This document shows, in pieces, positions 9,971-19,088 of a stretch of DNA of 41,121 nucleotides. The translations under genes were made by a program, and so were the position numbers. Every line of letters starts with the position of its first letter. Within the stretch, counting starts at the first letter, position 1. Below the pieces are notes generated by a model that worked only from the letters and a program-made list of their open reading frames with translations, did not search any database and was not told the origin of the DNA. Origin of the DNA: an uncultured Oscillospiraceae bacterium (lineage in GTDB: Bacteria > Bacillota > Clostridia > Oscillospirales > Oscillospiraceae); NCBI GenBank assembly GCA_947626785.1, contig CANQTO010000019.1:1-41121 (forward strand), given 5' to 3'.

Positions 9971-10020
9971 AAAACAGTATAACAGGGCTGGCCCAAAAGC
10001 CAGCCCTGTTATGCTGTTTT
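9971..10020. terminator. Very long symmetric intrinsic terminator
   Basis: Stem 9971-9992 pairs with 9999-10020 around a CCAAAA loop. The 14-bp core (ATAACAGGGCTGGC) is extended by AAAACAG/CTGTTTT after one mismatch. It starts right after the esterase stop codon, ends in TTTT on both strands, and closes the Bce/esterase operon. Confidence 0.85.
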
Positions 10021-10444: not shown

Positions 10445-10511
10445 GCTTGTAGACAAAGTCCAAAGGACTTTGTCTACAAGCCGGTGTGCGGTCACAAACT
10501 GCGACCGCACA
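10445..10511. repeat. Two adjacent large hairpins at the left end of the island
   Basis: The first is a perfect 17-bp stem, 10445-10461 with 10465-10481, around AAA; its arm begins GCTTGTAGACAAAGTCC. The second is TGTGCGGTC (10485-10493) with GACCGCACA (10503-10511). They lie just after the stop codon of the minus-strand gene and may end its transcript, but no T-run follows closely. They resemble other intergenic hairpin clusters in this window in style but not in sequence. Confidence 0.8.
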
Positions 10512-10518
10512 GAAGGAT

Positions 10519-11421
10519 TTACTCATCCTTATCGAGACGATGGTTCGCCCTGTACGAGATGCGGCTGACCTGGGAAGCGACCTGATCGTGGTCGTTGGTG
10601 TCCGCTTTCACGGATTCCGGAGTCAGTTTGCGACCGGCAATCATGTCGCGGATCTCCGACAGCTCGATATCGTTCCTCTTGGCGATCTCGAGGAGGATCT
10701 CCGCGTAAGCGAGGTCAGGGCCCTTGTCGAGGATCAAGCTGGCAAGCTGACGCGGCTTCATGGAAAGGTGCGTGACGGCGAGCCGCACCATCACCTCGGC
10801 GGGGCGCTTGCGCAGCAGCTCGATCTCGTGAAAGATAACTTTCTTCTTCTCAGCGCGCTTTTTTGCCTGCTCGGCATTGGATTTCGCTATGCGTTCCCCG
10901 ACCGTCTCCTTCGCCAAGAGGATGGCGTCAGGATCGTATGTAGAGTCTCCGATAATGTCGGCCAGCACAGCGCCATTTTCGTTGATGTCGCTGTTGATGG
11001 GAGTATCCCAGGGGACGACCTCTACCGGAGGGAGCTTCCTCCACAGGTCGTTGACCTTGTTGTTGACGATCCTGTAGGTGTAGAAGACTTTCTTGGAGAC
11101 CGGAGACTGGGCCAGAATGTGATCGAGTTTCTTCATGATGTGAAGGAGAATGTCCATCTGGATGTCGTAAAGGTCCATCCCCCCATTTTCAATCAAAAAC
11201 TTGACCTTGTCCGCGTTGCCAGGGACGATCTTACCGGTTTTGGTTTTCCCGGTTTTGCTTGCGAGGGCGAAATAGTTGATGAAATTCTGAGTGGCAAAAT
11301 ACAACTCGTTCGACAGATTTGCGTTTTTGGGAAGTCTGAGCTCATCAGCGGTAGAGATTCCGTTTTCCTCGATCTTGGAAAGAATGGACACGAATCTTTC
11401 ATAGTGCTTGTTGCTAGTCAT
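10519..11421 (-). CDS. Island protein with weak sigma-factor-like segment, 300 aa
   Basis: I do not recognise a family with certainty. The protein is soluble and largely helical. Around residues 100-170 the run VFYTYRIVNNKVNDLWRKLP, then VVPWDTPINSDINENGAVLADIIGD, resembles sigma-70 region 2 and the following linker, where an acidic L.D.I.D stretch is common. A lysine/alanine-rich helix (EQAKKRAEKKK) and a C-terminal part with IELSEIRDMIAGRKLT follow. ATG 11421 is chosen because AGAGGAGAG sits about 6 bases upstream; the earlier ATG 11439 has none. It is divergent from the five-gene cassette and shares its control region, so a regulatory role is the working guess. It could equally be a structural island protein. 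Confidence 0.6.
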   Translation of the reverse strand: MTSNKHYERFVSILSKIEENGISTADELRLPKNANLSNELYFATQNFINYFALASKTGKTKTGKIVPGNADKVKFLIENGGMDLYDIQMDILLHIMKKLDHILAQSPVSKKVFYTYRIVNNKVNDLWRKLPPVEVVPWDTPINSDINENGAVLADIIGDSTYDPDAILLAKETVGERIAKSNAEQAKKRAEKKKVIFHEIELLRKRPAEVMVRLAVTHLSMKPRQLASLILDKGPDLAYAEILLEIAKRNDIELSEIRDMIAGRKLTPESVKADTNDHDQVASQVSRISYRANHRLDKDE

Positions 11422-11491
11422 GTTGGGCTCTCCTCTCATTTTTTATTGAGGACGTTGTTCCGTCCTTCTGATTAGAGGATATACCCAGGCA

Positions 11492-11579
11492 ATCAAGCAT
11501 CGTTAAGTTTGGTATCAAGCAGAAAAAAAGTGAAAAAAAAAGAAACTATCAAGAAGATATTTCTTGATAGTTTCTTGAT
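11492..11579. promoter_or_regulatory. Divergent control region with five ATCAAG motifs
   Basis: ATCAAGCA occurs at 11492-11499 and 11514-11521 (22 bases apart), ATCAAGAA at 11548-11555, and the inverted TTCTTGAT at 11561-11568 and 11572-11579 (11 bases apart). Spacing by whole helical turns suggests co-operative binding of one regulator between the divergent island genes. A tentative minus-strand promoter, TTAACG-17-TATATC, overlaps the first two sites. No plus-strand promoter could be fixed. Confidence 0.55.
11522..11574 (-). terminator. Hairpin with long T-run on the minus strand
   Basis: GAAACTATCAAGAA (11542-11555), loop GATAT and TTCTTGATAGTTTC (11561-11574) form a perfect 14-bp stem. 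On the minus strand it is followed by nine T's, CAC and seven more T's. This is a textbook intrinsic terminator, but no minus-strand gene precedes it. It may stop antisense transcription from the cassette or be primarily the operator dyad. Confidence 0.55.
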
Positions 11580-11632
11580 AAGGCTGAATTAGAATAAGAT
11601 GGACGGTTTATCTAAGAGGGATTGAAAAGCCT

Positions 11633-13132
11633 ATGATGCAAGTCAAACTACCGCGAGGAATAAAGTATAGAGTAGAGATTCCGCAACCAGGGATTATCAT
11701 TCCAGGCTCTGAAAATGAACCAATTATCACTGTATTTGGACGTGATTCTAACATACAGTATAAATTGATTTCCTGCGCTTTGGAACAAGATTGCATTGTC
11801 CAAGATACTTATTCTGCTGGTAACTTGGACGATGATGAGATTGAAATGATTGATTCTTGGGTAGAGTACCTCACCCCATCTTTGTTACAGGAAGCCGGGG
11901 TTCGACATACTATACATTTTCTTCCAGATTCTACGTGCTACTATGATTTTGCTTCACAAACTCTGTATGGTGCTAATGGATATAAAGAGAAAAAAGGTGT
12001 GCGCACGGAGAATCGAGAAAATACCGCACCGATCAACGGAGAGCCATACAAGCTTAAGAAAAGCGAAACAGCATTTATCGAGTTGTTGACTCGCACACCA
12101 AATGCACCGTTTTCAATGGAAGATGTCGAGGATTTGTCAGGCCTTCATGGTGCTGGCAGTGTGACATCAACTTGGCATGAATTTAAAAGACATGACTCAG
12201 CCATTGATGCGACCTTCGATAGAAAAAATGGAATGTTCTTTTATCGGGGCATTCCTCAAATATGGGTTATTGGTGAAGACAAAGAAGATGAACTTACATT
12301 AAAGAAGCTTTTTGAAGTAGTAGGATATGGAGATGTTGTGGCTTCTTTTGATAAGACACGGCTAAGAGTCTGTCTTGCTGAGAAAGCGTCACCAGAAGAA
12401 AAACTCATGTTTCTCGGAGTAGCCAACGCCTTGATTGACTTAACAACAATAGAAATGGATATCAATAGATTTGTTGTTAGTAACTATTGCCCGGCGTCCG
12501 TGTTGATCGGGTTTCTTAATAGGTATAGTAGTGATAATAGTGTTTCTCTTGAAGCCGTGTGGAAAGCTTTACGAGAAAAACTCACCGAGAATCTCACATT
12601 GAGTTTAAACGCTTCAACATACCATTATGAAACAGAAGAGATTCCGTCTCGGCTGGCCGACTTAAAGGGATATACGGTTACAGCCGGGCGACTTGAAAAA
12701 TCATTACAGCGCATTTGCCCCGCAATAAAGAGTATCATAACTTCTACTCGTGTTGGCACGGATTATTTTGGGTACTGTGATATCGCAGTAAAGCCTAGTA
12801 CGGTAGTAGATTATATTGCTGCACTCGTCTTGGCTTGCTTTAGCTATTGTCGCTCTGAGCAAGATCCTATGATTTCACAGAAAAAAACTCGTTATCAAAG
12901 TATACTTACCGCATTGATTCGTAAGCAGTTCAATTATTCTCCTCCGGGAGATGGGAAAAAAGGTATTATTGAAGAAATCCAGAGAATGTTGGCTGAGATT
13001 CAGTTAGAAACAAGAGAAGCTGGTTTGGACTCTTCCGTTTCAAAGCTTATCAAAATCAACGATCTACTTAATCTCCTAGGTAATAATGACTCAAATAGCC
13101 TACTACAAACTTCAATAGGTAGGGAACTTTAA
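11633..13132 (+). CDS. Island protein of unknown family, 499 aa
   Basis: I do not recognise it. It is soluble, with no signal or membrane segment. The N-terminal 130 residues are beta-rich (KYRVEIPQPGIIIPGSENEP, HTIHFLPDSTCYYDF). A segment near 145-210 (SETAFIELLTRTPNAPFSMEDVEDLSG then SVTSTWHEFK) has the pattern of a winged-helix unit. The C-terminal half is helical, with a Cys-containing stretch ALVLACFSYCRSE. The DNA is clearly more AT-rich than all neighbours, a sign of foreign origin. ATG 11633 (or 11636) follows AGAGGG at some distance. It is the first gene of the plus-strand cassette, 15 bases before the VirD4-like ATPase, and may be the target-recognition or adaptor component. Confidence 0.7.
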   Translation: MMQVKLPRGIKYRVEIPQPGIIIPGSENEPIITVFGRDSNIQYKLISCALEQDCIVQDTYSAGNLDDDEIEMIDSWVEYLTPSLLQEAGVRHTIHFLPDSTCYYDFASQTLYGANGYKEKKGVRTENRENTAPINGEPYKLKKSETAFIELLTRTPNAPFSMEDVEDLSGLHGAGSVTSTWHEFKRHDSAIDATFDRKNGMFFYRGIPQIWVIGEDKEDELTLKKLFEVVGYGDVVASFDKTRLRVCLAEKASPEEKLMFLGVANALIDLTTIEMDINRFVVSNYCPASVLIGFLNRYSSDNSVSLEAVWKALREKLTENLTLSLNASTYHYETEEIPSRLADLKGYTVTAGRLEKSLQRICPAIKSIITSTRVGTDYFGYCDIAVKPSTVVDYIAALVLACFSYCRSEQDPMISQKKTRYQSILTALIRKQFNYSPPGDGKKGIIEEIQRMLAEIQLETREAGLDSSVSKLIKINDLLNLLGNNDSNSLLQTSIGREL

Positions 13133-13147
13133 GGAGACAAATGAACT

Positions 13148-14893
13148 ATGATTAGCACGAACAACCCAAATCTTTCACGCCCGGAAGTGCTGTTCCAGGA
13201 GTTTGCCCATCTTGACATCAACACGCACCGTTTTTCAGGAAAGAGATCCTTTGATGGTCAATTTGGAGGCGTTCCCCTCCTATACAGTAAAGAAAAACAA
13301 CAGCTGGCTGTGGACGCTACGGATAACCATACCCTTGTCATTGGCGCCTCCGGCAGCAAAAAAACCCGCTCCCTGGTCCTGCCCGCCATCAAAGTTTTAG
13401 CTTACGCTGGCGAGAGTATGATCATCAATGATCCGAAGGGCGAGCTTTATACCCGCACAGCCGGTGAGCTCCGGGACTTGGAATACAATATAATTACGGT
13501 CAACCTCCGTGATCCGTCCGTGGGGCATGCCTTCAATCCGCTGCAAATACCGTACAGCTATTATAAGGCGGGGGATATGGATAAGGCGGCGGAATTTGCC
13601 AACGATATTGCGAACACGCTCATACTGGGTGAGATCGCGACCGACGACCCGTTCTGGGCATACTCCGCGTACGATACATGCCTAGGTCTCATTTTGCTCC
13701 TTTTTAAACTGTGCAAAGAAATGGATTATCCCGATAACGCCGTGAGTATCTCAAATCTTTTGCGGCTTAGGAGAAAACTGTTTGAAAACGGAGTAAATGC
13801 CAAAAACTCTCCGCTTTGGAAATGGGCAAGCAAAGACGAGTTGATCGCGGCAAGCTTGACAGGGAGCGTAATGACCGCGCAGGATACAATGCGCGGGATC
13901 CTCGCGACGCTGGATCAAAAGCTAAGGGCGCTGGCGATACAACCTTCTTTGCTGGAAATGCTGGCTAACTCTAATTTTGACATTGAAGAGATCGGACAGA
14001 GCAAAACCGCGGTCTATCTTATTACTCCAGATGAAAAAACGACCTATTCCTCGATCGTCGCGATGTTTATTTCGCAAAGCTATCAGCGTCTGATTTATTC
14101 TGCGACACAGAATGGAGGCCGTCTGAGCGTTCGCGTCAACTATATTCTGGATGAGTTCAGCAGTCTTCCGGCTATTGGCAGCGATTTCCCGAGCATGATT
14201 TCTGCCGCCAGATCCAGAAATATACGTTATCTGATCTGTATCCAATCAAAGTCCCAGTTGGTTAAGCGCTATAAGGAAGAAGCGGCGACGATCATTTCAA
14301 ATTGCACGAACTGGGTCGTACTATTTACACGGGAGCTCGAGCTCCTGCGAGAAGTGTCTGAGCTGTGTGGGCAAAAGAAGGATCGGACGCCCAACGTTTC
14401 GGTTTATGACCTCCAACATCTATCGAAAGATAAGGATGAAGCTCTTTTGCTGGCAGGAAAAGCAAAACCATGTCTTGTAAATCTGCTGGATATCGATCGC
14501 TTTGGGGAACACAGCTACAAAGTGATCGATTTCGAAACACCAGAAAGGCTATCGAGATTCAACGTTGATTTTTCCGAACTACCCGCTGAGGCCAGAGCAA
14601 TTATCGAAGAGGAACGCGCGCGATTGTCCGCTCCTTTGAATCCGGGATTCGGCCCATTTAATACCCCTAGTTTAAATCCTCCGCGTTCGCCAATAACTCC
14701 GCCGGGAGCGGGAGAAAAAACGATAGATCCAGTCGATGAGCTGCTTGCAAGTATAGATAAAAGGATCGCTGAACTTGAAGAGGAAGAACGCAAACAATCG
14801 ATCGATTCTAAATTGGGCAGTGTCGTAGATACCATAAAAGAACGCCGTAACGGACTATATCAAGCAGGTGTGACCGAGTCCACCGAAGAATAA
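13148..14893 (+). CDS. Soluble VirD4/TraG-like P-loop ATPase
   Basis: A 581-residue ATPase of the VirD4/TraG coupling-protein superfamily. The P-loop GASGSKKT is at 66-73, NDPKGELY at 94-101, DPSVGHAFNPL near 122, Walker B YILDEFSSLP at 332-341, and the conserved arginine-rich sensor region ISAARSRNIRYLICIQSKSQL at 351-371. Unlike conjugative coupling proteins it has no N-terminal membrane helices. The P-loop has Lys where the usual Gly precedes the catalytic Lys (K71 before K72). After about residue 480 the tail is Pro-rich then acidic/helical, likely a partner-binding region. AAGGAG lies 11 bases before ATG 13148. No relaxase or channel genes are near, so classical DNA transfer is unlikely. 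Confidence 0.88.
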   Translation: MISTNNPNLSRPEVLFQEFAHLDINTHRFSGKRSFDGQFGGVPLLYSKEKQQLAVDATDNHTLVIGASGSKKTRSLVLPAIKVLAYAGESMIINDPKGELYTRTAGELRDLEYNIITVNLRDPSVGHAFNPLQIPYSYYKAGDMDKAAEFANDIANTLILGEIATDDPFWAYSAYDTCLGLILLLFKLCKEMDYPDNAVSISNLLRLRRKLFENGVNAKNSPLWKWASKDELIAASLTGSVMTAQDTMRGILATLDQKLRALAIQPSLLEMLANSNFDIEEIGQSKTAVYLITPDEKTTYSSIVAMFISQSYQRLIYSATQNGGRLSVRVNYILDEFSSLPAIGSDFPSMISAARSRNIRYLICIQSKSQLVKRYKEEAATIISNCTNWVVLFTRELELLREVSELCGQKKDRTPNVSVYDLQHLSKDKDEALLLAGKAKPCLVNLLDIDRFGEHSYKVIDFETPERLSRFNVDFSELPAEARAIIEEERARLSAPLNPGFGPFNTPSLNPPRSPITPPGAGEKTIDPVDELLASIDKRIAELEEEERKQSIDSKLGSVVDTIKERRNGLYQAGVTESTEE

Positions 14894-14907
14894 GGAGAAT
14901 GGATCAT

Positions 14908-15933
14908 ATGGAACGAGAAGTTATTATAGCTACTACTGACGAAAACGGTGCCGCATTGGAAAAAGAAGAAACGATCAACCTTCCCATCAAAACAGCAAAC
15001 GCCATCGCCCAGACTTATTTGGACAGTGTTTCCAGCGACGACTTATATGAAGCGGAGACGGCCCTTAAAGATCTCAATGCCATTGTTCAAAGAGTTATTC
15101 AGCAGACAGTAAAAGCGGGAGATGCCGACGATTGGCACAATTTCGCGGTCGATGTCGCGAGGAAAGCCCTGTATGACCTGGCATGCGATCTTCTCGAGTG
15201 CGGATTGTCGATTTATCCCAAGAATATTGATTTGCTGGCAGATTATCTCCAGTATGGTATCTCTTGCGGAAGGATAGAAAAATGCAGGTCATTCTACAAG
15301 GTGCTCTCTAAGATACCTAAAATCCGCTGGAGCTGGCGCGGATACAGCTTCTCTGTCAGCTACCTGACGTATCTTTGGGAGCGGAGTGATTCAGAGAAAG
15401 AGCTGGAAAAGCTTCAAGAAGAGATGATGAGTCTTGCGGCAGCTTTCAGACAGAATCTTCCCTATGATGAGGAAAGCTATCGATGCGAGGCCGAGATCTA
15501 TAAACTGCTGCACAAGAAGAAAGAGGAAGAGGAAGTTCTTCGTTTGGCTTTGAGCAAGTTAAAGATCGCTCCGAAATGTGCTCTTAGGCTTTCAGATTTG
15601 TTATTTGACCGTGGAGATTATGAAGAGGCGTTGACATTGATCCAACGAGGCCTCCGCGACGCTATGCAAACGCAGAGATCCGTAAATGAGGGGTATTTGT
15701 ATTATCTTATGGGCCTTACAAAGATGGCTCTGGCACAGCGGGCAGAGCAGGCGGGGACCCCCATCTCGGAGGAAACGGCATACGATATCTACGCCGATTT
15801 TGATATTTCCCTGCGGCAGGAGCGTAGAGTGGCATATGTCAATACGATGAAAGCGAAAACGATCGTCCTTGTAAATAAATCTGGGGCTCCTATCCCGGAG
15901 AAATATGAAGAACTCAATTACCTGATCCAATAG
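14908..15933 (+). CDS. TPR-like helical repeat protein, 341 aa (island)
   Basis: A soluble all-helical protein with TPR-type repeats. Examples are ALYDLACDLLECGLSIYPKN, YLQYGISCGRIEKCRSFYKV, SYRCEAEIYKLLHKKKEEEE and the clear unit LLFDRGDYEEALTLIQRGLR. A helical segment GYLYYLMGLTKMALAQRAEQ follows. Such repeats usually scaffold protein complexes. ATG 14908 is chosen because AAGGAG (14892-14897) is 10 bases upstream; the earlier ATG 14899 is only one base from it. It follows the ATPase gene by 14 bases in the same frame of transcription. It is probably an adaptor for the VirD4-like ATPase, but that is inference from context only. Confidence 0.75.
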   Translation: MEREVIIATTDENGAALEKEETINLPIKTANAIAQTYLDSVSSDDLYEAETALKDLNAIVQRVIQQTVKAGDADDWHNFAVDVARKALYDLACDLLECGLSIYPKNIDLLADYLQYGISCGRIEKCRSFYKVLSKIPKIRWSWRGYSFSVSYLTYLWERSDSEKELEKLQEEMMSLAAAFRQNLPYDEESYRCEAEIYKLLHKKKEEEEVLRLALSKLKIAPKCALRLSDLLFDRGDYEEALTLIQRGLRDAMQTQRSVNEGYLYYLMGLTKMALAQRAEQAGTPISEETAYDIYADFDISLRQERRVAYVNTMKAKTIVLVNKSGAPIPEKYEELNYLIQ

Positions 15934-15965
15934 GATAGCGGACGACTTGGAAGAGGGTGAAGTTT

Positions 15966-16928
15966 ATGAGCGCTGATATTGCGAAACTGAATAAACAGGT
16001 CGAACAGTTCTGCGGCAGCCCAAGCTCTCTGTTTTTTAGCGAGGCACAAGAACTTTTAAAGGAGCTTCTTAAGGCGCTCTGCTGCGAAGAGGACCTCTTG
16101 AAACGCAACAAGTTGGAGCAGCTTCTCGGTGTGGTTCGTCGTTCTTCTGAAGCTGACGTGTCGACCTATGCGCATGTTCTTGATGCCATCGCTCTTGAAG
16201 AATATGAAGCCGGAGACGTTGATTTCGCAGAATGCCTATTCCGCCGTGCTTCTGATTTGGTTGATGACCATTCCCTTAATAATAATTTGGCCTATGTGCT
16301 GCGAAGAAAAGGGCATGATTCGATCAACAGGTACGAAGTGATCACTTTGCTGCTCCCTGGGGTCCAAAATAGAGATCCATTCTGTCTCATTAATATGGGC
16401 TTGCTTTTCGCGCTGGGCTTTTCCACTCCCGATGACTGGAAAACTGCCGATGATCTGTTCGCACTGCTGCCGGATGAGATAGATGGAGCCGTTTCCTGGT
16501 GGGAAAGACTTGGCAAGAATAACGACTCCGAAGGTTACTTAGTTCATTTTTTCCTTCTGCGACACGGAAAGATCGAACATAGTAGTCTGGGTTCGATCCG
16601 AAGCGTAGCCGCGCGTTTGGCAAAGAGTATGGACGGATTTCCTGAGTGGCTTGCAAAGGATTATGCCATCGAAACACTCAATGATGTAGTCGAATGTATG
16701 GCCGATCCAGACTTTGATTCTATTCTGGAGAACTTCCTTGAAAAGATGCCGCGCTCCAGAGAAAGCGTCGACGAGATGCTGGAAGTTGTGTCCAGCTGGG
16801 ATTTGTGGCCGGTGTACGATAAGCTGCTGACCGATTGTGCCGGGTTCCTTTCGCCGGAAGAGCTGGAAAAGCTGAAAGCTGATTATAAAAAAACCTTCTC
16901 CGTCCCGCTTCCTGACGAAGAAGAATGA
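15966..16928 (+). CDS. Helical-repeat (TPR/Sel1-like) protein, 320 aa (island)
   Basis: Soluble and helical. The middle has repeat-like features: HVLDAIALEEYEAGDVDFAECLFRRASDL and NNNLAYVLRRKG look like one TPR pair, and INMGLLFALGFSTPDDWKTADDLFALLP like a Sel1-type unit. The C-terminal half (ESVDEMLEVVSSWDLWPVYDKLL) is Trp-rich and unassigned. ATG 15966 is preceded by AGAGGGTG at good distance; the GTG at 15957 would lie inside that site. It is the fourth gene of the cassette, 32 bases after the other TPR-like gene. The two may be distant paralogues or form a joint scaffold. Family identity is tentative. Confidence 0.7.
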   Translation: MSADIAKLNKQVEQFCGSPSSLFFSEAQELLKELLKALCCEEDLLKRNKLEQLLGVVRRSSEADVSTYAHVLDAIALEEYEAGDVDFAECLFRRASDLVDDHSLNNNLAYVLRRKGHDSINRYEVITLLLPGVQNRDPFCLINMGLLFALGFSTPDDWKTADDLFALLPDEIDGAVSWWERLGKNNDSEGYLVHFFLLRHGKIEHSSLGSIRSVAARLAKSMDGFPEWLAKDYAIETLNDVVECMADPDFDSILENFLEKMPRSRESVDEMLEVVSSWDLWPVYDKLLTDCAGFLSPEELEKLKADYKKTFSVPLPDEEE

Positions 16929-16952
16929 CGCACAGACTGTCGGAGGAAAGAT

Positions 16953-17330
16953 ATGAAAAAAGCTGAGTTTATAGAATTACTTGACGAGTATCTCAATAAT
17001 ACCGGAATGAACAGCGGATGCTATAACGGCGCATTCCTCAGTGTTGGAGATGAAAAAAATGTCAACACGAGTATCTACATTGACGATGAGGATCGTATTT
17101 GGGTCGCAGATGACGAATCTGTAAAACGGGTCAAGACTTCTATTCATGTAGATGATATCGTTGAGATCAGGTATTCGGCGTTCGGCAGCGATGGAGGCAG
17201 ATTCTTTGTTATCTGCCGGGACTATTCCGGATTGGATTTCTGCGAGGGGGAAATTGGCTTTTTCACAGACGGTTATTATGGAAGCTTTAAAAAGGCTACG
17301 GATTGGTTCACAAACGATCCTGCGCAATAA
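16953..17330 (+). CDS. Small acidic island protein, 125 aa
   Basis: I do not recognise this family. The protein is acidic and compact: an N-terminal helix MKKAEFIELLDEYLNN is followed by alternating beta-like stretches (GAFLSVGDEK, NTSIYIDDEDRIWVADDES, RVKTSIHVDDIVEIRYSAFG, GRFFVICRDYSGLDF). The fold may be SMI1/KNR4-like or an immunity-protein-like alpha/beta sandwich, which is a guess from pattern only. GGAGG lies 6 bases before ATG 16953. As last gene of the cassette, small and acidic, it could be an inhibitor, chaperone or antitoxin-like partner. A strong terminator follows at once. Confidence 0.7.
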   Translation: MKKAEFIELLDEYLNNTGMNSGCYNGAFLSVGDEKNVNTSIYIDDEDRIWVADDESVKRVKTSIHVDDIVEIRYSAFGSDGGRFFVICRDYSGLDFCEGEIGFFTDGYYGSFKKATDWFTNDPAQ

Positions 17331-17353
17331 TGTGCAATAAGCAATAAAATGAT

Positions 17354-17399
17354 GGGGCTGTGAAAAGTGAGCCTTTTACGGCTCATTTTTCACAGCCCC
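17354..17399. terminator. 20-bp-stem terminator hairpin at the right end of the island
   Basis: Stem 17354-17373 pairs with 17380-17399 around TTTTAC: 19 Watson-Crick pairs and one G-T. The arm begins GGGGCTGTG. It lies between the convergent cassette (plus) and UPF0210 (minus) genes, with T-rich sequence on the minus side (ATCATTTTATTG). Confidence 0.8.
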
Positions 17400-17449: not shown

Positions 17450-18805
17450 TCAGTTTTTCAAACTGTGCAGGGGGGCCGGGATGCGGCCGCCCCGGGCGAC
17501 GAACTCCGCGGCGGAGCCGGCGCGCAGAGGCATCACCGGCGCGGAGCCCAACAGGCCGCCGAAATCCACCCGGTCGCCCACGGTCTTGCCCTGGGCGGGA
17601 ATGACCCGGACGGCGGTGGTCTTGTTGTTCACAACGCCGATGGCCGCCTCGTCGGCGATCAGGGCGGAGAGGGTCTCGGCGGGGGTGTCGCCGGGGACGG
17701 CGATCATGTCCAGACCCACAGAGCAGACGCAGGTCATAGCCTCCAGCTTGTCGATGCTCAGAGCGCCGGCCTCCACGGCGGAGATCATGCCCGCGTCCTC
17801 GGAGACGGGGATGAAGGCCCCGGACAAGCCGCCCACATGGCTGGAGGCCATGACGCCGCCCTTCTTCACCGCGTCGTTCAGGAGGGCCAGGGCCGCGGTG
17901 GTGCCGTGCCCGCCGCACTTCTCCAGGCCCATGATCTCCAAAATCTCCGCCACGCTGTCGCCCACGGCGGGGGTGGGGGCCAGGGACAGGTCCACCACGC
18001 CGAAGGGCACGCCCAGACGGCGGGAGGCCTCCTGGGCCACCAGCTGGCCCATGCGGGTGATCTTGAAGGCGGTCTTCTTCACCGTCTCGGCCACCACGTC
18101 AAAGGGCTGGCCCTTGCAGTCCCGCAGGGCGTGGGCTACCACGCCGGGGCCGGACACGCCCACATTGATGACGCACTCCGGCTCGCCCACCCCGTGGAAG
18201 GCGCCGGCCATGAAGGGGTTGTCCTCCACGGCGTTGGCGAAGACCACCAGCTTGGCGCAGCCCAGAGGGCCCAGGGCGGCGGCCTCCTTGATGATCCGGC
18301 CCATGAGGGCCACCGCGTCCATATTGATGCCAGCCCGGGTAGAGGCCACGTTGACGCTGGAGCAGACCAGGTCCGTCTCCGTCAGGGCCTGGGGGATGGA
18401 GTGGATCAGCTTCAGGTCGCTCTCGGTAAAGCCCTTGTGGGCCAGGGCCGAGAAGCCGCCGATGAAGTTCACGCCCACGGCCTTGGCGGCCCGGTCCAGG
18501 GCTGCGGCCAGGGGGACATAGTCCTCCGCCCGGCAGGCGGCGGCCACCAGGGAGATGGGGCTGACGGAGATGCGCTTGTTGACGATGGGGATGCCGAACT
18601 CCTGCTCGATGGCGCAGCCGGTCTCCACCAGCTTCTCCGCCTTGCGGCAGATCTTGTCGTACACCCGCCGGCAGCAGGTCTCCAGACTGTCCGAGGCGCA
18701 GTCCAGCAGGTTGATGCCCATGGTGACGGTGCGCACGTCCAGATGCTGCTGGTCGATCATCTGGATGGTTTGCAGTATTTCGCTGCTGTTGATCAGATAA
18801 CTCAT
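17450..18805 (-). CDS. UPF0210 (DUF711/PFL) family protein
   Basis: A 451-residue member of the UPF0210/DUF711 family, which is related to the anaerobic formate-lyase-type (PFL-like) fold. Family stretches are [16 protein letters not shown] at the N-terminus, [56 protein letters not shown] and the C-terminal [19 protein letters not shown] with [16 protein letters not shown]. The biochemical role of the family is not known. ATG 18805 is chosen from AGGGGAAACT just before it; the longer frame from 18919 would run into the ACT gene. It follows the ACT-domain gene by 13 bases, an arrangement conserved in many Gram-positive bacteria, so the ACT protein is probably its ligand-sensing partner. Confidence 0.92.
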
Positions 18806-18818
18806 AGTTTCCCCTGCC

Positions 18819-19088
18819 TCAGATCCGGTGCATGGCCTCAAAGATGTCCTGCCGCTGGATGTGGACATCCAGGCTCCGCTCCGCGCCCTTTTCCCGCAGG
18901 AAGCGGGCCAGCTCGTCAAAGGGCAGGGGGCAGTCGGCCAGGTCCACCAGCATGATCATGGCGAAGTATTCCTGCATCAAAGTCTGGCTGATATCCAGGA
19001 TGTTGATCTCCTTTTCGGCCAGAAGGCCGGTCACATAGGCGGTGATGCCCTTGGAGTCCATGGCAAAAACGCTGACGATGGCTTTCAT
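18819..19088 (-). CDS. ACT-domain protein (UPF0237 family)
   Basis: An 89-residue stand-alone ACT domain: [37 protein letters not shown] beta-alpha-beta start, then [18 protein letters not shown] and a C-terminal helix [12 protein letters not shown] domains bind small ligands, often amino acids, and regulate partner proteins. ATG 19088 has AAGGAG 6 bases upstream; the frame could open earlier at 19109 without a ribosome site. It is the first gene of the two-gene ACT-UPF0210 operon, and its mRNA probably carries a long structured leader (see 19129-19327). The ligand is unknown. Confidence 0.92.

Follow-up and report, generated by a model that had tools for sequence, protein, structure and literature searches.

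An apparently mobile gene set built around a soluble VirD4-type ATPase in an uncultured Oscillospiraceae bacterium: a candidate cytosolic motor-plus-adaptor module

VirD4 proteins are membrane gatekeepers of conjugation and secretion. This report concerns a VirD4-like ATPase without a recognisable membrane anchor, and the six-gene island that encodes it in the genome of an uncultured Oscillospiraceae bacterium (assembly GCA_947626785.1, contig CANQTO010000019.1; the stretch analysed, hereafter the window, comprises 41,121 nucleotides). Five genes of the plus strand code for a 499-aa protein, the ATPase, two proteins named TPR1 and TPR2 after tetratricopeptide repeats (TPRs) and a 125-aa protein, and are preceded by a divergently oriented gene and a shared control region (Table 1). 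An initial annotation of the DNA had described five tightly packed genes separated by 14 to 32 bases and facing a divergent gene. All six open reading frames (ORFs) were found where that annotation had placed them, with gaps of 15, 14, 32 and 24 bases on the plus strand when homologue-supported starts are used for the divergent gene, TPR1 and TPR2. The GC content is indeed lower than that of the flanks, with 41–48% in the six 1-kb bins between 11 and 17 kb and 57–69% in the remaining bins, except for 52% at 10–11 kb, which is partly island, and 51% at 27–28 kb. The terminators or hairpins described at both ends of the island were also recovered, as hairpins, together with a further one at 9971–10020.

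Table 1. Features of the island and of its edges in the window.
Feature	Position	Strand	Detail
Hairpin past the divergent gene's end; may be a terminator or mark the island edge	10445-10481	.	17-nt arms, 100% complementary, 3-nt loop
Divergent gene, putative regulator, sigma-70 domain-2-like, about 300 aa	10519-11421	-	start at 11421 homologue-supported
Candidate operator, a palindrome within the shared control region	11540-11576	.	perfect 16-bp inverted repeat, 5-nt spacer
499-aa protein, variable member, candidate recognition subunit, no known family	11633-13132	+	ORF
Soluble VirD4/TraG-type (CD1115-like) ATPase, 581 aa	13148-14893	+	Pfam/NCBIfam
TPR1, conserved core member of about 341 aa with helical repeats	14908-15933	+	homologue-supported start; TPR matches
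TPR2, probably helical, 320 aa, core but less conserved	15966-16928	+	homologue-supported start; weak TPR_12
125-aa protein, accessory gene in the window copy	16953-17330	+	ORF
Hairpin past the operon; may be a terminator or mark the island edge	17354-17399	+	20-nt arms, 95% complementary

The ATPase matches PF02534 (E = 5.6e-36) and PF12696, the TraG-D C domain (3.1e-20), and reaches 250.1 bits against NF045973, the CD1115 family model (cut-off 250); a sequence search of the PDB found nothing. Its Walker A motif reads GASGSKKT and its Walker B motif LDEF. The proposal that this VirD4-like protein is soluble is supported by comparison with its relatives. A genome scan yielded the best 80 of 156 of them, namely two close proteins, L032 (83% identity) and L033 (75%), and 78 others from uncultured Bacilli and similar metagenome-assembled genomes (MAGs), with 34–42% identity in the best segment. 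No N-terminal hydrophobic stretch was found in the window ATPase, L032 or L033, and in these three and a fourth close homologue, L118, 39 residues precede the shared core, with no anchor in any of them. Such a stretch is present in 76 of the 78 others, and the remaining two begin at a contig edge. The loci of these anchored relatives contain a VirB4-like family in 66/78 cases (one representative, with a TraG P-loop domain) and a TrbL-like family in 50/78 (one representative, with a score below the cut-off). In a tree built from 54 of 112 rows, the window ATPase, L032, L033 and L118 form one clade with support of 100/100; this clade stands on a long branch (1.42), and its position next to anchored proteins of Bacilli is moderately supported (91/82) and subject to a long-branch warning. 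Because the anchored relatives sit in gene sets of type IV secretion systems (T4SSs), the soluble clade most likely descended from a channel-bound coupling protein. These T4SS-like sets of Bacilli (L034–L111), with VirB4-like, TrbL-like and anchored VirD4 genes, also have rhodanese and RmuC genes downstream in 62/78 and 50/78 loci.

The active site of the soluble clade deserves separate mention. In 4/4 clade members the Walker A glycine has given way to lysine (K71), and glycine occupies this position in 105 of the 108 other rows. The three exceptions are anchored type IV coupling proteins (T4CPs), with methionine in L014 and L026 and alanine in L011. The possibility of a dead ATPase, considered on account of the lysine, is weakened by these proteins: since three other T4CPs deviate as well, K71 need not mean that ATPase activity is lost, and the clade retains the Walker B acids together with lysine 72 and threonine 73. 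The ratio of nonsynonymous to synonymous substitution rates (dN/dS) of the ATPase gene was calculable for three pairs and is 0.046–0.056; this low value identifies a maintained gene rather than a chance ORF.

Four carriers of the gene set were found: the window genome (G000), a Lachnospiraceae MAG (G485, locus L032), G484 (L118, a 45.7 kb prophage-like IMG/VR contig) and an Oscillospiraceae MAG (G486, L033). The initial annotation had called for a search for the same genes in other genomic places, and had held that a gene order limited to one strain, or relatives lying within intact conjugative elements, would speak against a new system. The complete copies L032 and L118 keep both order and orientation, and neither is accompanied by recognisable conjugation genes: no relaxase or channel gene was recognised in their neighbourhoods, where selected genes were compared with Pfam and the rest were read by eye. 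In the window likewise, no relaxase, VirB4 or recombinase was seen by eye among the 29 surrounding ORFs, for which no family library was run, in agreement with the reported lack of a relaxase or channel nearby. L033 preserves ATPase, TPR1 and TPR2 at a contig edge, with TPR2 cut short; the contig of this carrier, G486, starts just before the ATPase gene, and a search of G486 for the 499-aa gene was negative. The same order is thus seen at differing genomic places in distant hosts, and the gene set is probably mobile. The 125-aa gene has no match in the genomes or records of the other three carriers and is therefore accessory at most, so that one of the two proteins set down as unknowns falls outside the conserved set; searches of Pfam, NCBIfam, PHROGs and PADLOC gave no explanation for it.

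The set is also rare. At E 1e-3 the TPR1 profile matched 4/394 order-level genomes, with a strong match in the window genome alone; the surroundings inspected for the other three matches (2e-29, 1e-6 and 5e-4) showed no gene set of this kind. The profile of the 499-aa protein matched 2/391 class-level genomes, the window's own and G594 (5.9e-4), and none of the other five module proteins was found within the 15 kb fetched from the latter. The 499-aa protein as a single query found 1/149 relatives, its own genome, and a pattern scan with it found no relative, missing even the L032 copy (35% identity); the rarity seen in these scans is thus a lower bound on occurrence, because the pattern scan is insensitive. 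Viral sequences were scanned with five module profiles or alignments and one for a second VirD4-like protein described below, and each returned the same single contig.

Comparison of the copies separates a conserved core from a variable half. On the one hand, protein identity between copies is 76–90% for the ATPase and, with four copies compared, 74–93% for TPR1 and 53–76% for TPR2. On the other hand, it is 39–48% for the 499-aa protein (three copies) and 39–55% for the divergent protein. Along the DNA, the 12900 bin is 58% identical to L118 and 49% to L032, and the 13100 bin 82% and 78%, a step that coincides with the start of the ATPase gene. Counted at conserved residues, and with codons that are not independent, four-fold silent sites differ more often in the variable half than in ATPase plus TPR1 (67/85 v 125/207, p 0.003; 79/105 v 119/211, p 0.001; and, for the third pair, 71/99 v 128/212, p 0.058). 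On these figures, from a comparison of three sequences, cassette exchange of the variable half is favoured, not proven, over mere fast evolution. The control region, noted earlier as rich in motifs, contains the palindrome, which is kept in both L118 and L032 with differing letters and with changes paired across both arms, and which is a candidate for a conserved operator-like site.

The divergent protein gave only chance-level matches by sequence in the PDB and none in BFVD at E 0.001; its structural model, of moderate confidence, resembles sigma domain 2, and the protein is probably a sigma-domain-2-like putative regulator. For the 499-aa protein, Pfam, NCBIfam and the PDB yielded no match, PADLOC likewise offered no explanation, and one weak match to a PHROG of unknown function was obtained with 1/3 members. 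The secondary structure predicted for its middle part looks by eye like a winged helix, an impression that was not relied on. The recogniser role that the initial annotation suggested for this protein draws only indirect support, from the variable half formed with the divergent gene. Of the two helical-repeat proteins that it named, TPR1 has modest support, with a PF14559 match of 8.4e-5 and 23.3 bits (below the cut-off of 25) and matches to synthetic consensus-TPR chains at 1e-3; for TPR2, a weak PF13424 (TPR_12) match (E 0.46) and no match in the PDB make the likeness to TPR proteins slight. Support for TPRs, judged by these profile matches, is real for the first protein alone, and modest.

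The surroundings of the complete relatives bear on function. Immediately upstream of the module, both L032 and L118 encode a cytosine methylase together with a nuclease of the Eco29kI type. This restriction-modification (RM) pair is preceded by a serine recombinase in L032, and an ABC-3C pair (CTD11 and DUF2326; L118:3573-6590) is found upstream of the L118 module, with phage-replication-like genes, by eye, farther out. RM genes thus accompany 2/2 complete relatives and ABC-3C one of them, and the L033 contig is too short to show its context. The initial annotation had proposed looking for enrichment near defence genes; such genes adjoin the two complete relatives, and none was recognised by eye around the window copy. 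Between the L118 module and a YbjN gene (L118:15406-18961), BRCT, ASCH/DUF3850 and unknown small proteins are encoded.

Around the window copy, one flank is by eye chromosomal, with a response regulator, an ABC transporter and a hydrolase, and so is the other, with UPF0210 and ACT-domain genes followed by hydrogenase maturation genes and complex I-like subunits. No flanking direct repeat marking the island ends was found. UPF0210 was matched in 37/61 genomes, and among the 30 UPF0210 loci compared, the window's own included, the left-hand hydrolase adjoined UPF0210 in 0/30, save for a weak 53-residue match in L171; because this hydrolase is not conserved in place, the island ends are not fixed. 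The UPF0210 ORF (17450–18919) is longer than its relatives (L159–L187), most of whose matches begin near residue 35, so its true start probably lies further inside.

We interpret the island as a mobile cytosolic motor-plus-adaptor module with an exchangeable recognition and control half, likely serving defence against phages or mobile elements, and hold this reading tentatively, at a probability of roughly 0.42. The function itself, be it defence or targeted protein handling, is suggested by context only. The 499-aa protein would recognise an invader or a substrate, and the variable half would control expression through the conserved palindrome, with the sigma-like protein as a possible controller. 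TPR1 and TPR2 may link the substrate with a ring of the VirD4 type, and this ring would pull, remodel or unfold a target, DNA or protein, inside the cell, possibly in joint action with a ClpP cluster that 3/4 carriers possess. A protein target is favoured by the link to ClpP, and a DNA target by the ancestry of the motor. Several observations weigh against this interpretation. No effector (nuclease, toxin or protease) is present in the module, and by eye none of the 29 ORFs that surround the window copy was recognised as a defence gene. The RM pairs of L032 and L118 are 68–77% identical, so this context comes from two relatives and may represent a single association. The PADLOC (2023) models returned no system match for the six proteins, the best being LmuA at E 0.014 with the divergent protein. 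The model of the 499-aa protein, made from three sequences, has a mean predicted local distance difference test score (pLDDT) of 48.7, too poor for a fold search. As to exchange of the variable half, the dependence among codons counts against it, as do the two-fold silent sites, which show no significant separation (p 0.13, 0.070 and 0.072).

The ClpP cluster supports a different account, in which the module is a companion of that cluster and, by means of its soluble VirD4 ring and TPR adaptors, selects and unfolds proteins, perhaps tagged with a ubiquitin-like protein, for ClpP; it would serve protein quality control or targeted degradation rather than act on DNA. A second soluble VirD4-like protein (79–100% identity between carriers) is encoded in 3/4 of them (G000, G484 and G485), even though it is rare, being found at E 1e-60 in 1/394 order-level genomes, the window's own, and in 2/391 class-level genomes, the window's own and G626 at 41%. 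Its gene lies on the contig of the module about 14 kb from the ATPase gene in G485 and about 21 kb in G484. The three close clusters share the order ClpP, a 261–287-aa protein, the second VirD4 and a 322-aa protein, which is M50-like in the sole case tested, that of the window genome. A C-terminal motif resembling VDxLxxxIDAKIAELEEEE is common to both soluble types (3/4 clade ATPases and 2/2 second-type proteins). This motif is also found in 78/78 anchored Bacilli proteins and 0/28 other T4CPs, the former count being biased since the Bacilli set was partly fetched by the pattern IAELEEEE. Against a companion role, module and cluster lie on separate contigs in the window genome, where the second VirD4 gene is on contig C13. 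The two VirD4 types are moreover only about 30% identical and form no clade of their own in the tree, the second having a canonical Walker A glycine and ILEEL instead of LDEF. No close second VirD4 gene was found in G486, and in G626 (G626:C42 20079-23316; L200/L201) a triad of ClpP, a 252-aa protein and a soluble VirD4-like protein, from another family of the class, occurs without the module in the 35 kb read around it. With these two cases the linkage is not obligate: it holds on the same contig in 2/4 carriers and in the same genome in 3/4, a strong association drawn from few carriers. We regard the companion role as rather doubtful.

The cluster on C13 (L157, L125 and L195; about 3–30 kb) is about 20 kb long and contains genes for SprT-like (just under the cut-off), YbjN-like, ThiF/E1, transglutaminase-like and SPFH proteins, small ORFs in tandem that weakly match ubiquitin-like proteins, and a HerA-like protein that matches the mad8, HerA and DndH models of PADLOC; serine-recombinase ORFs were seen by eye on its far side. 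G484 DNA is 75–78% identical to C13 along the E1/HerA-like stretch. E1 and ubiquitin-like genes thus accompany the second VirD4 cluster in two carriers, and G485 has PP2C and kinase genes instead. The G626 triad is followed, by eye, by activase-, PP2C- and kinase-like genes and possibly belongs to a wider ClpP-VirD4 system. An L7/L12- or ClpS-like appearance of the C-terminal 71 residues of the second VirD4 (L125:10765-10977) was set aside when phmmer found no match in the PDB, as was a JAB label given by eye to L125:3-797 and L119:13733-14596, which have no Pfam match.

The island could otherwise be a regulatory or superinfection-exclusion cassette of prophage-like elements, with transcription controlled by the sigma-like and 499-aa proteins and the VirD4-like protein serving as a non-hydrolysing scaffold. 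The sigma-like divergent protein, the K71 substitution in 4/4 clade members and the phage-replication-like genes on the IMG/VR contig are consistent with this account. A virus-classed contig, however, holds 1/4 copies only, and the anchored T4CPs that likewise lack the glycine, together with the retained Walker residues, argue against a scaffold; we consider this account improbable. Marginally less probable still is the remnant of an element once conjugative or mobilisable, whose coupling protein drifts or still aids transfer by a helper T4SS, because strong purifying selection, conservation of the gene set in distant hosts, loss of the anchor in 4/4 copies and the lack of a relaxase recognised, largely by eye, beside any copy oppose it, despite clear T4CP homology, the serine recombinase near L032, the prophage-like contig of L118 and VirD4-like genes, possible helper elements, in 34/99 relatives searched.

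Among known systems, the T4SS coupling proteins (VirD4/TraG, CD1115; PF02534, NF045973) share the motor domain, the TraG-D C domain, Walker B and further conserved residues with the window ATPase. The latter differs from them by having no N-terminal anchor, a lysine for the Walker A glycine and no channel or relaxase recognised nearby, and its operon adds TPR1, TPR2, the 499-aa protein and the sigma-like gene. The HerA/FtsK-type motors of defence systems (HerA pairs, DndH, mad8 of MADS) belong to the same broad class of pumping ATPases. They resemble the module in occurring in mobile islands near restriction genes, but the HerA, DndH and mad8 models of PADLOC do not match the window ATPase, whereas the HerA-like protein of C13 does match. 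The second soluble VirD4 is alike in its solubility, its similar C-terminal motif and its presence in the same islands (C13, G484 and G485, with a relative in G626), and differs, beyond its sequence, in the adjoining ClpP and other proteases. The ATPase descends from T4CPs but fails two features that define them, the anchor and the channel or relaxase context, and the module is best filed as a mobile-island motor of the FtsK/HerA/VirD4 class with a new partner set. Prokaryotic clusters of E1, E2 and ubiquitin-like genes, as described in the available portion of their survey (Iyer, Burroughs and Aravind 2006, PMC1779556), are similarly mobile and have E1-like genes; in two module carriers the linked or co-resident cluster includes an E1-like gene, but E1, E2 and ubiquitin-like genes are absent from the module proper, and VirD4/TraG has 0 occurrences in that portion of the text. 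A search of the literature by title and abstract opening, with subscription journals largely outside its scope, found no description of a soluble VirD4 module or of a ClpP-VirD4 cluster.

A bolder combination, which we think unlikely, would have the VirD4 motor freed twice from the membrane, once beside ClpP, in company with E1/ubiquitin-like or kinase/PP2C genes, and once with TPR adaptors, the two forming jointly one mobile tag, adaptor and motor degradation pathway. This pathway would be a bacterial counterpart of ubiquitin-proteasome immunity, its recognition half being exchanged like a restriction specificity gene. More generally, the link to ClpP predicts coupling-protein rings that feed proteins to a protease, and the operon is compact enough for testing in defence assays. 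A conserved, mobile family of anchor-less VirD4 proteins with adaptors would show that this motor is usable as a free machine.

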